Shown in pieces: positions 34,015-37,651 of a stretch of DNA of 48,428 nt. Source of the DNA: Actinomycetota bacterium (GTDB lineage Bacteria > Actinomycetota > Actinomycetes > Streptosporangiales > Streptosporangiaceae); the NCBI GenBank assembly GCA_027314515.1, contig DAHVAR010000044.1, forward strand, positions 1-48,428, given 5' to 3'. The notes under the pieces were generated by a model that saw nothing but the letters and a program-made list of their open reading frames with translations, was not told the DNA's origin and ran no database searches. Numbering within the stretch: position 1 is the stretch's first letter; every line of letters starts with the position of its first letter. The translations under genes and the position numbers were made by a program.

Positions 34015-34605
34015 ATGGAACAAGAGGAACCGCAGGACCGCATCGCTGTCGGGCTCGAACCCGCGGCCTGCGGAGTGCCATCGCCCAGAGGGGGGCCAGT
34101 GACTCGCAGGCTGCTTCGGCTTGAGATCCCGGTCTTCCCGGAGCGGCTCATGTTCCGGGTCCATGACCCGATCGCCGAGCTCGACGCCCCTGGTGGCCCG
34201 ATGCCGCCTATTGACTCGCTCATCAGCACTGGCCGTGACCAGCTGATCGTTTCCTGCGCGCAGCAGCACGTGGGCGTGCAGCTGACGATCGAAGAATGGG
34301 ACGACGCGCCGCCGCCGTTCAGCGACGGCTACGAGGACGAGGCCAAGTGCGTTCTGTATCTGCGCGGTCAGCTCAGCGTCGATACCGGCGCGGCGGGTTT
34401 CCGCGCGGTCGACTCGCTCCGGCTATCCGGCGGCGTCGGTGATTACGGAGTGCGGATCTACACCAGGAACAGGGCGGCAGCGCTGCAGCGCTACGGCGAA
34501 CTCTTCCAGGAGTTCAGTGATCCGCTGAGCGACGACTTCCAGCAGGCGCGCAAGCGCCTGGAGGGCATGGAGCAATACCTGCTCCAGCTGTGGCGCGAGT
34601 CCTGA
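34015..34605 (+). CDS. hypothetical protein
   Basis: 196 residues from ATG 34015 with GGGAG a few bases upstream; GTG 34099 is a possible alternative and would remove an unstructured Pro-rich head. The rest is a compact strand-rich domain (RLLRLEIPVFPERLMFRVHD), then ISTGRDQLIVSCAQQHVGVQ, an acidic loop (EEWDDAPPPFSDGYEDE), further strands, and a C-terminal helical hairpin (DDFQQARKRLEGMEQYLLQL). No known domain recognised. Coding appearance and RBS are good. Confidence 0.6.
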   Translation: MEQEEPQDRIAVGLEPAACGVPSPRGGPVTRRLLRLEIPVFPERLMFRVHDPIAELDAPGGPMPPIDSLISTGRDQLIVSCAQQHVGVQLTIEEWDDAPPPFSDGYEDEAKCVLYLRGQLSVDTGAAGFRAVDSLRLSGGVGDYGVRIYTRNRAAALQRYGELFQEFSDPLSDDFQQARKRLEGMEQYLLQLWRES

Positions 34606-34629
34606 CCGCCGGTCGTCAGGCGCGCACGG

Positions 34630-34929
34630 CTAGGAGCCGCTGCCCGGCTGGCTGTGCGCGGTTTTCGTCGACCCGGCGGGCGTCCTGCCGTGCTGCGTCG
34701 TGCCGTGCTGCGTGGCGTACGGGCTGAGCACGAACATCATGACGGTCACCGCCGCGATGAGCGCGAGCGCCAGCAGTCCCACAACGGTTTTGATGCGCTG
34801 GGAGCGAAGGGTTCCCGGCAGCCGCTGCTGGCCGAAGGCATTGAAGCGGGAGGCTAGCTTCGGGTCGTCAATGGCTAGCTGCCGCTCCATCTCGTCTAGC
34901 ATGCGCTGCTCTTCCATTGACAAGGCCAC
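34630..34929 (-). CDS. DUF3040 small membrane protein
   Basis: 99 residues from GTG 34929, with GGAGG 7 bases upstream and TAGCAT (34976-34971) as a -10 farther up. The N-terminal LSMEEQRMLDEMERQLAIDD, then PKLASRFNAFG, is the DUF3040 signature, followed by a membrane helix (VVGLLALALIAAVTVMMFVL) and a polar Ser/Gly/Thr tail. The family is confined to actinobacteria; function unknown. A second membrane helix is missing compared with typical two-helix members. Confidence 0.85.
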   Translation of the reverse strand: MALSMEEQRMLDEMERQLAIDDPKLASRFNAFGQQRLPGTLRSQRIKTVVGLLALALIAAVTVMMFVLSPYATQHGTTQHGRTPAGSTKTAHSQPGSGS

Positions 34930-35125
34930 AGCGCCACCTCCGGCCGGACATCGGTACGCCGCGGGCGGCTATGCTAGCCACCCCTTCCCCCGATTCTTTA
35001 CCAGGCCTTTGCGGTCGGCAAGAGGAACTCGGCGTGCCGATCGGCTCGATATGCGACCGCGAGCGCAATCTGAGTCGCTTCAGTCCGAGAATGCCCTGAT
35101 CTGAGCCCTGAGCTCGAAATCATAT

Positions 35126-35154
35126 TTGAGCGAATCGAATAATCGTTCTAGCAT
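35126..35154 (+). promoter_or_regulatory. sigma-70-type promoter with a LexA (SOS) box-like dyad
   Basis: TTGAGC (35126-35131), a 17-base spacer, and TAGCAT (35149-35154) make a good promoter; transcription would start at or next to ATG 35162. The spacer holds TCGAAT-AATC-GTTCTA (35135-35150), matching the actinobacterial LexA box TCGAAC-N4-GTTCGA at 10 of 12 positions. This suggests DNA-damage induction. Confidence 0.65.
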
Positions 35155-35161
35155 CTCGTCC

Positions 35162-36214
35162 ATGCGCTGGGACTCCCTCCGGTTGGCTGACGACGGGCCC
35201 AGGGAACAGCAGGCGTTGTTTGACCGCGACCTTGTTGTCAGCAGGACGTTCGACACGCCCGGCTTCCGCGGCATCACCTTTCACGAGGTGCGCGCCCGGA
35301 GCCTGATCAGCAAGGTCCCGCCGGAATCGCGGGTGCCATTCCGCTGGACGATCAACCCGTACCGGGGTTGCAGCCACGCATGCGTCTACTGCTTCGCTCG
35401 CAACACCCACACCTATCTCGACCTCGACTCCGGGCACGACTTCGACAGCCAGATCGTGGTCAAGGTCAACGCGGCGGATCTGCTGCGCCGGGAGCTGCGG
35501 GCGGCGCGCTGGTCCGGCGAGCACATCGCGATGGGCACCAACGTCGACTGCTACCAGCGGGCCGAGGGCCGGTACCGGCTGATGCCCGGCATCATCACCG
35601 CGCTGACCGACGCGGTGAATCCGTTCTCTATCCTCACCAAGGGCACCCTGATACTGCGGGACATCGACCTGCTCGCGCGAGCCGCTGCGGTGACCGACGT
35701 CGGGCTGAACTTCTCCGTGAGTTTTGTCGACAAAGCGCTTTCTCGATCTATCGAGCCAGGAACGCCGGCTCCAGGCCGGCGCCTGGCCGCCTGCGCCGCC
35801 CTCAGCCAGCGCGGCCTGCGCTGCGGCGTGCTGATGGGCCCGGTGCTGCCGTTCCTGTCAGACTCCCCCGGCCAGCTCGATGCCGCCATGCGCGCGATCG
35901 CCGACGCCGGGGCGAGCCACGTCAGCCCGGTCGTCTTGCATCTGCGGCCCGGCGCCAGGGAGTGGTTCCTGCGCTGGCTGGGAGCTAATCACCCGGGGCT
36001 GGTAGACACTTACCGTGACCTGTACGGCGGGCGCGCTTACGCCCCGGCGAGCTATCAGCGGCAGATTGCCGGGCAAGTGGCCGAGCTAGCCCGCAAGCAC
36101 GGCGTGGGACGTACCACGCCGGCCGGCGCACGGCGCGTTCCCGGAGTCGATGCCAGGCAGGGCCCGAAGCGGGCAGGCAGCCAGTCGGCACCGGTGCAGC
36201 TGTCGCTGCTGTGA
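35162..36214 (+). CDS. Rv2578c-family radical SAM protein
   Basis: 350 residues from ATG 35162 (MRWDSLRL, the usual start of this family), leaderless at 7 bases from the -10 box. It has an iron-sulfur motif RGCSHACVYCFAR (C-x3-C-x2-C), then GTNVDCYQRAEGRYRLMPGI, FSILTKGTLILRDIDLLARA and GLNFSVSFVD. It belongs to the spore-photoproduct-lyase-related group and is distributed through actinomycetes; the reaction is unknown. Homologues in mycobacteria are DNA-damage responsive to my recollection, and the SOS-box-like promoter agrees. The C-terminus is a Pro/Arg/Gly-rich tail ending in VQLSLL. Confidence 0.88.
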   Translation: MRWDSLRLADDGPREQQALFDRDLVVSRTFDTPGFRGITFHEVRARSLISKVPPESRVPFRWTINPYRGCSHACVYCFARNTHTYLDLDSGHDFDSQIVVKVNAADLLRRELRAARWSGEHIAMGTNVDCYQRAEGRYRLMPGIITALTDAVNPFSILTKGTLILRDIDLLARAAAVTDVGLNFSVSFVDKALSRSIEPGTPAPGRRLAACAALSQRGLRCGVLMGPVLPFLSDSPGQLDAAMRAIADAGASHVSPVVLHLRPGAREWFLRWLGANHPGLVDTYRDLYGGRAYAPASYQRQIAGQVAELARKHGVGRTTPAGARRVPGVDARQGPKRAGSQSAPVQLSLL

Positions 36215-36308
36215 GCCGCTCACCCCCGGTTGTCTAGGCTCATCACTGTCGGCGGGAATCGCCACGCCGCTAGCGGCGCACCGCGGCGCTTGCCGGGATG
36301 ATGCCGAG

Positions 36309-36818
36309 ATGACCCGGGGAGACCGGTTGCCAGGGACCGATTCGATGCTTACCAGCAAGGCGCCGAGCCGCCAGCCGCATCGGGCCTCCGGGCCGGGTGC
36401 GGCTGACCTGGCAGCGGTTGCGGCCGGTGGCGGCGTCGGCAGCGTGGCGCGGTACCTGCTCTCGGCTGCCTTCCCTGCCGGGCACGGCTTCGCGTGGGGC
36501 GTCTTCGCAGTGAATGTCTCCGGCTGCTTCTGCCTCGGGCTGCTCATGGTCTACCTGCTGGAGGTCTGGCCGCCATGGCGGTTCCTGCGCCCCTTGCTGG
36601 CGGTTGGCCTGCTGGGCGGTTACACCACGTTCTCGACTTATGCGGCTGGCGTGCTGACGCTGCTGACCGGACGCGCCGAGGCACTGGCTGACGCATACGC
36701 GCTCACCAGCATCGTGGCCGCGCTGGTGGCTATATGGTGCGGAATGAAGCTGGCCAGGTCGGCTGCCGGGCTGCCGGGACTCCTCGCCGGTCGCGGGCGC
36801 GAGCTAGGTGCCAGCTGA
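36309..36818 (+). CDS. crcB: CrcB/FluC fluoride channel subunit
   Basis: 169 residues from ATG 36309 (ATG 36345 is also possible). Four membrane helices and family marks: [39 protein letters not shown] (Asn in helix 2), and [20 protein letters not shown] (the TTFSTY phenylalanine box that lines the F- pore). Fluoride channels are dimers; in many actinomycetes two different subunits are encoded side by side, as here with the second gene at 37245. The last 11 bases (GTGCCAGCTGA) are the first unit of a four-fold repeat. I found no fluoride riboswitch upstream. Confidence 0.9.
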
Positions 36819-36867
36819 GAAGGTGCCAGCTGAGACGGTGCCAGCTGAGACGGTGCCAGCTGAGGGC
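36808..36867. repeat. 15-bp tandem repeat (four copies) over the crcB stop and DUF190 start
   Basis: GTGCCAGCTGAGAAG, twice GTGCCAGCTGAGACG, and GTGCCAGCTGAGGGC follow each other. The first copy contains the crcB stop codon. Each unit contains an in-frame GTG for the DUF190 gene, so translation could initiate at several copies, adding [10 protein letters not shown] units. Confidence 0.9.
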
Positions 36868-36873
36868 GGCCCG

Positions 36874-37248
36874 ATGAAGCTGGAAGGCGCCGCCCGGCGC
36901 ATCACGATCTTCATCGGCGAATCCGACCGGTATCACCACAAGCCGCTGTATGCCGAGATCGTGCACCGGGCTCACCAGAGCGGGCTTGCCGGGGCCGGCG
37001 TGTTCCGCGGCATCGAGGGGTTCGGCGCTGCGTCCCGGATCCACACCAGCCGGCTGCTGTCGCTGAGCGAGGACCTGCCGCTGGCCATCATCATCGTCGA
37101 CACCGCCGAGCGGACCGAGGCATTCCTTGACGAGGTCGCCGAACTGGTGACCGGCGGCCTGGTGATCGTCGACGACGTGCAGGTGCACACCTACGCAGGC
37201 GGGCCGCAGGCCGACGGCACCGCGGCAGCGGGCGGCACCACGTCGTGA
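36874..37248 (+). CDS. DUF190 family protein
   Basis: 124 residues from ATG 36874; in-frame GTGs in the upstream 15-bp repeat give longer forms (up to 146 residues from 36808). Family marks: [44 protein letters not shown], and [20 protein letters not shown]. It has a PII-like fold. DUF190 genes are regularly placed next to crcB, and recent work links them to fluoride handling (a PII-like regulator). The stop overlaps the second crcB (GTGA). Confidence 0.88.
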
Positions 37249-37651
37249 TCATCCTGGCGGTGCTGGCTGGCGGCATGATCGGCGCGCGGCCCGGTACCTG
37301 GCTGACCGGTTCGTCCAGGCCAGGCACGACTCGGTGTTCCCGTGGGGAACGTTCGCGGTGAACATGGCCGGTTCGGCGGTGCTCGGCTTCCTGCTCGGCG
37401 CGGTGCGTCACCTGGGCCTGCCGCCCGGCCTGTTCGCGCTACTCGGCACCGGTCTTTGCGGCGGCCTGACGACGTTCTCCACGTTCGGTTACGAGACGCT
37501 GCGGCTGCTGGAGGATGGCGCAGTGGCGGAGGCAGGGGTGAACGTCATCGGCAGCCTGGTAGCCGGCGTACTGCTGGCCTGGCTAGGGTTCCTGCTGGCA
37601 GGTGCACTCTTACCGGTGAGCGGAACCCCGGGGCGCTGCGCCCCTCGGTGA
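37245..37651 (+). pseudogene. crcB: second CrcB/FluC subunit, frame break near the N-terminus
   Basis: GTG 37245 overlaps the DUF190 stop and gives the start of helix 1 ([14 protein letters not shown]). At 37281-37292 the frame is lost. The proper continuation ARYLADRFVQARHDSVFPWG, then TFAVNMAGSAVLGFLLGAV and GGLTTFSTFGYETLRLLEDG, runs one frame over to 37651. One missing base or two extra bases in the GGCGCGCGGCCC run explain it. Apart from this break the gene is intact, so a sequencing error in a GC run is quite possible. If real, the heterodimeric fluoride channel cannot form from this pair. Confidence 0.8.

Follow-up and report, generated by a model that had tools for sequence, protein, structure and literature searches.

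The locus analysed here raises the question of whether a gene for an otherwise obscure radical SAM enzyme belongs to the SOS response, and if so how its promoter is built. The window, by which we mean the whole analysed stretch of 48,428 nucleotides, carries this gene on the forward strand at 35162..36214, encoding 350 residues without any insert from an ATG that was placed by aligning the starts of orthologs. The first-pass annotation had put a LexA-type dyad inside the promoter, and as far as the main dyad and the hexamers go its description stands. The box TCGAATAATCGTTCTA (35135-35150, + strand; arms TCGAAT and GTTCTA around AATC) lies between a predicted -35 hexamer, TTGAGC (35126..35131, +), and a predicted -10 hexamer of the TAnnnT type, TAGCAT (35149..35154, +), spaced 17 bp apart, and on recounting it does match the consensus TCGAAC-N4-GTTCGA at 10 of 12 arm positions. 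It overlaps the spacer and takes in the TA with which the -10 begins. What had been overlooked is a second, upstream box over the -35, TCGAAATCATATTTGA (35114-35129, +), which has three mismatches, starts 21 bp before the main box and supplies with its TTGA the opening of the -35. The ATG at 35162 is 7 nt past the -10 and no Shine-Dalgarno sequence lies between them. Support for the -35 comes from the motif TTTGA, found no more than 40 bases from the start in 9/9 same-genus loci, the window counted. Two other readings of this region were discarded: a TTG start at 35126 in the list of open reading frames, since orthologs align from the ATG onward and that TTG is the -35, and a promoter pair TCGAAA-18-AATAAT from a simple promoter scan, the -10 of which overlaps the unconserved N4 of the box. 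No Rfam elements were found in 34500-35500. Judged from sequence, DNA damage very probably induces the radical SAM gene, and we consider a LexA-repressed promoter that is released upon damage and yields a leaderless radical SAM mRNA to be the best explanation, with a probability of roughly 0.9.

An obvious concern is that a short degenerate palindrome will turn up by accident, in which case the dyad would be a chance match in a promoter and the gene would stand outside LexA control. Simple counting favours exactly this: the window contains one site with ≤2 mismatches where shuffles give 1.07, and the whole genome contains 376 such sites compared with 446 for the reversed pattern. Taken as a pattern alone, in the window or in the genome, the dyad is therefore not significant, and we reject any argument from those counts alone. 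The case that it is more than chance comes from its place and its conservation upstream of orthologs, which are significant. Conservation in orthologous promoters, on which the first-pass annotation had staked its proposal, was assessed in three sets of loci by scanning 120 bp upstream of each start, with dinucleotide shuffles and reversed sequences as controls. The ortholog search covered 60 whole genomes including the window's own and gave matches in 43. In the set of relatives (29 loci with a usable N-terminus, window included), a box with ≤3 mismatches is present in 29/29 (shuffle mean 1.66, reversed control 2) and one with ≤2 in 28/29 (0.17 and 1); leaving out the window gives 28/28 and 27/28. 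This set derives from the 30 loci L002-L031, of which L022 drops out for want of an N-terminal match; the N-terminal half of this ortholog sits on a different contig and enters the third set as L146. Within it, the site counted for L030 is misplaced at -19 and looks accidental, and L003 and L006 are counted through their upstream box only.

A second set consists of the best 80 of 594 loci from named genomes and leans towards Streptomyces; 79 are usable, L117 having no N-terminal match. Here 75/79 loci have a box with ≤3 mismatches (shuffle mean 4.12, reversed control 5) and 44/79 one with ≤2 (0.49 and 2), and elsewhere in the same loci sites with ≤2 mismatches occur at 0.008 per 120 bp. The misses among these best 80 of 594 are L122, L124, L127 and L129, in all four of which the start is uncertain; that of L127 is an artefact, as the box straddles the misplaced start. 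Loci with a misplaced or uncertain start were kept in the counts throughout (L011, L076, L100, L112, L114, L122, L123, L124, L125, L127 and L129). Perfect TCGAACN4GTTCGA boxes at -24 are found, among these best 80 of 594, in Nakamurella, Demequina, Planosporangium and a Dactylosporangium MAG. The third set (n=18) was drawn from places in the ortholog search that had no locus, leaving out G033:C18, G040, G054 and the second place of G057, and is made up of second copies (n=6), additional single matches, most of them more distant (n=8), and split orthologs represented by their N-terminal halves (n=4). A box with ≤3 mismatches is present in 18/18 and one with ≤2 in 17/18 (reversed control 1 and 0), and in 14/18 it sits at -24 or -25 from the start codon. 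With the box kept in place among relatives, named loci and also second copies, and with shuffled sequences giving next to none, a chance origin of the dyad is very improbable.

The same conclusion is reached with a weight matrix built from 67 boxes with ≤2 mismatches to the consensus, from which the window's genus and the Streptomycetaceae were left out. The matrix is independent of the genus but not of the consensus, as the training sites were chosen by it. When every position of the window is scored on both strands, the main box ranks first with 22.3 bits and the upstream box second with 17.0 bits; the next distinct site, other-strand readings of these two aside, reaches 9.5 bits. The main box scores below about two thirds of the training boxes, and its departures from the consensus are common ones, with a T at position 6 in 15/67 and a T at position 15 in 24/67 training sites.

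How the box is fitted to the promoter can be read from its register relative to the start codon. Among 126 loci (the named ones from the best 80 of 594), 64 fall into two register classes and 56 into neither, the remaining 6 lacking a box of this kind. A box start at -28 to -26 goes with a -10 of the form TAnnnT that shares the TA of the box (18/20 loci; the exceptions, L096 and L144, have a better box further upstream), and a box start at -25 to -23 with a -10 of the form TCnAnT inside the half-site (42/44 loci). In both registers the -10 ends up almost equally far from the start codon. Given these classes, the T that breaks the palindrome in the window, giving GTTCTA and not GTTCGA, is best read as a base of the -10. 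The 56 loci outside the classes are mostly Streptomycetaceae with a leader; TAnnnT is present in 41 and TCnAnT in 45 of them, with both readings often fitting. In the window's own group, the short distance from -10 to ATG and the lack of a ribosome-binding site would fit a leaderless mRNA, and the earlier prediction of a leaderless promoter agrees with the distance from -10 to start codon in the 64/126 loci that have their box 23-28 bases upstream (named ones from the best 80 of 594). Many Streptomyces orthologs have instead a longer leader with GAGGAGG. A rule of this kind, in which the box is tied to the -10 and the -10 to the start codon, may be a simple predictor of LexA-controlled leaderless genes.

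The Streptomycetaceae, a working label that we gave by record title to 44 loci from the best 80 of 594 named ones, depart from the consensus in a systematic way. No locus there has a box with ≤1 mismatch (0/44), 12/44 have one with ≤2 and 43/44 one with ≤3. The sequence GGGAACN4GTTC[TC]A is present in 32/44, in 23 of them 46 to 49 bases upstream, so that in these loci (within L050-L120) the inner GAAC/GTTC is kept and the outer left bases are consistently changed. Either LexA tolerates this variant in the Streptomycetaceae or regulation has changed there, perhaps with another factor reading the site.

The upstream box raises the further question of whether the promoter has one operator or two. 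A box with ≤3 mismatches located 20-22 bp upstream of the main box position is found in 14 loci, made up of 8/9 same-genus loci (the window's own included), four family members and two MAGs among the named loci (from the best 80 of 594). Allowing 18-24 bp, 17/106 loci have a second box (named ones from the best 80 of 594), where shuffles give 0.4; the additional loci L065, L069 and L070, all Streptomyces, have it at -24 and are outside the 14. Decay has left L003 and L006 with no more than the GTTCTA end of the downstream box, and their upstream box is strong (TCGAATATGTGTTTGA); as these two loci keep the upstream box alone, the boxes seem able to replace each other. It could nevertheless be that only the downstream box is a working operator here, the upstream sequence being either a -35 that happens to stand beside TCGAA or a relic, which would be compatible with LexA control of the gene. 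The three mismatches of the upstream box in the window point that way, as does the fact that L007 and most other loci lack a second box, only those 17 of 106 having one. This is difficult to square with the upstream box having the second-best matrix score in the window, with its recurrence at 20-22 bp in 14 loci when shuffles yield 0.4 per 106 over all offsets of 18-24 bp, and with its being the better of the two boxes in L003, L006, L009 and L027; we regard a single working operator as the less probable arrangement, though one to be taken seriously.

Our fuller, still tentative proposal, to which we would give somewhat less than even odds, is that the promoter works as an SOS switch with two operators, the upstream LexA box being merged with the -35 and the downstream one with the -10, at a separation of two helical turns. 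In this proposal the box slides by about 2 bases together with the -10 across actinobacterial loci and the leaderless start stays fixed, the boxes are interchangeable in evolution (L003, L006), and the family in its entirety, down to the second copies, would be dedicated to the SOS response, acting on a substrate that need not be spore photoproduct. A limited literature search turned up no earlier report on paired LexA boxes of this kind in actinobacteria, although such reports may exist. Compared with LexA control itself, this tandem arrangement embedded in the promoter is the fresher detail.

Control by LexA requires the regulator, and the genome encodes one LexA (243.6 bits vs. a cut-off of 110.95) with DNA-binding and S24 domains. 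As controls, other SOS genes of the genome were checked for boxes, namely lexA and recA: TCGAACAGATGTTTGA is found 187 bases ahead of the probable start codon of lexA and TCGAACAATTGTTCGT 358 bases ahead of that of recA. Compared with S. venezuelae, both boxes are more distant from these probable starts, going by the available text on that species (PMC9380542). The RecA of this genome (G000:C144, L048) is read in a 776-aa frame whose RecA domain falls into two parts, as though an intein interrupted it.

A different damage regulator might also account for the conserved promoter. PafBC, the second DNA-damage regulator of actinobacteria, controls many damage genes and, according to the available text of two reports, acts at a promoter that likewise ends in TAnnnT (PMC8223512, PMC5656591), so that the dyad might be kept because this or another factor binds it. 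The PafBC motif, TTGTCRGTG-N8-TAnnnT, has however no match better than 5/12 mismatches in the 200 bp upstream of the window gene, and its best matches over 126 upstream regions (named ones from the best 80 of 594) have 3 to 6 mismatches; the 600 bp upstream of recA in the same genome do contain a match with 2 mismatches. Moreover, the bases that are conserved are those of the LexA palindrome. On the absence of its motif we discard PafBC control of the window gene, and binding of the dyad by any factor other than LexA appears highly unlikely.

LexA control would then work as follows. In an undamaged cell, a LexA dimer on the main box (35135-35150) would mask the spacer together with the beginning of the -10, and a second dimer would probably sit on the weaker upstream box (35114-35129) and mask the -35. 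Because the 21 bp between the boxes correspond to two helical turns, the two dimers would be aligned along the same side of the helix and keep RNA polymerase out. Upon DNA damage, RecA filaments would trigger self-cleavage of LexA and the promoter would open. Transcription would start at or next to the ATG, giving a leaderless mRNA for the radical SAM enzyme.

What this enzyme does is a separate question. The gene product is, as had been annotated, a radical SAM protein (PF04055) of the Rv2578c family (NCBIfam NF038135, 498.9 bits vs. a cut-off of 430), and its description as spore-photoproduct-lyase-like is supported by structure prediction. Spore photoproduct lyase is the best match in sequence-profile searches, a weak one with an E value of 0.019. 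With a model based on a 34-sequence alignment (mean pLDDT 80), Foldseek gives spore photoproduct lyase 4k9r as best hit (E 8.9e-08, TM 0.59) and VIA-align gives 4fhf with Z 19.2 and an rmsd of 3.5 over 267 residues, the next family having Z 15.0. Spore photoproduct lyase (PDB 4fhc, 4fhf, 4k9r) thus has the fold closest to that predicted for the window enzyme, and the CxxxCxxC cluster motif is common to both; the two differ in sequence to the extent of 14% identity, and as no cysteine outside the cluster triad is invariant in the family, they need not have their chemistry in common.

The cluster cysteines, C70, C74 and C77, are present in 34/34 family members. In spore photoproduct lyase the catalytic cysteine that donates hydrogen is C140 of the solved enzyme. 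Among the 34 family members there is no fourth invariant cysteine: C130 is present in 22/34 (a proline in 12) and C221 in 25/34, in a comparison where residues were not superposed one by one. As no extra cysteine is invariant, the hydrogen-donor cysteine may be missing in the Rv2578c family, and we therefore assign no substrate. The enzyme may have a role in DNA repair. To our knowledge, the family has no biochemical characterisation. In a number of orthologs (L019, L021, L027, L028, L030 and others) a large insert, in frame with the protein, interrupts it after about residue 84 and is probably the intein of NCBIfam NF038136; a LexA-type box is found upstream of insert-split and insert-free orthologs alike.

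LexA control of radical SAM genes is already published, and the window gene is a further predicted member of the SOS regulon. In S. venezuelae, the available text of a LexA ChIP-seq study lists the radical SAM gene vnz_31145 as a target that goes up 19.97-fold with mitomycin C, compares its product with enzymes that repair UV thymine cross-links, and gives the LexA box as tCGAAC-N4-GNNCGa (PMC9380542). The window site resembles the actinobacterial SOS box in being a TCGAAC-N4-GTTCGA palindrome over the core promoter and in being conserved upstream of orthologs; it differs in its two arm mismatches, one of them common to the -10, and in the weaker second box over the -35. We treat vnz_31145 as a candidate ortholog only, the box published for it in that text being different from the conserved Streptomyces site found here (PMC9380542). 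The published 14-base box is absent, at ≤1 mismatch, from all ortholog loci examined; in L074 a stretch loosely similar to it by eye lies on the other strand just downstream of the conserved box.

Further afield, and going by the texts available to us, a comparative analysis counts a radical SAM protein, its family unnamed, among the core members of the LexA regulon in Gram-positive bacteria and also reports splB (COG1533) or a radical SAM protein as an SOS gene in Balneolaeota (PMC7739468). For splB, SOS control is described in Bacteroidetes (PMC8565304) and predicted in alpha- and beta-proteobacteria (PMC3323433). All of these are like the window gene in combining a SplB-like or radical SAM protein with a LexA site. 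LexA motifs outside the Gram-positives differ from the TCGAAC-N4-GTTCGA type. For M. tuberculosis, the main text of a mitomycin C study that reports many genes with SOS boxes makes, in its available part, no mention of Rv2578c, radical SAM or photoproduct (PMC8151990), and the literature search found no paper joining LexA, SplB and Corynebacterium. The promoters of many genera and the second copies place the widespread Rv2578c radical SAM family in the actinobacterial SOS response, and DNA damage is therefore the condition under which its substrate should be sought.

Finally, the surroundings of the gene offer some minor observations. Its upstream neighbour is a divergent DUF3040 gene, and the element CGGCAAGAGGAA at 35016-35027 lies between 135 and 146 bases 5' of the radical SAM ATG. 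A sequence of this kind recurs upstream of the ortholog as GGCAAGAGGAA in L024, L004, L019, L007, L010 and L021 and as CAAGATTTTTAGCC in L009 and L027, and the element may be part of the promoter of the DUF3040 gene. Directly 3' of the radical SAM gene is a CrcB-DUF190-CrcB cluster (36150-37651), which we take to be of the fluoride-exporter type.
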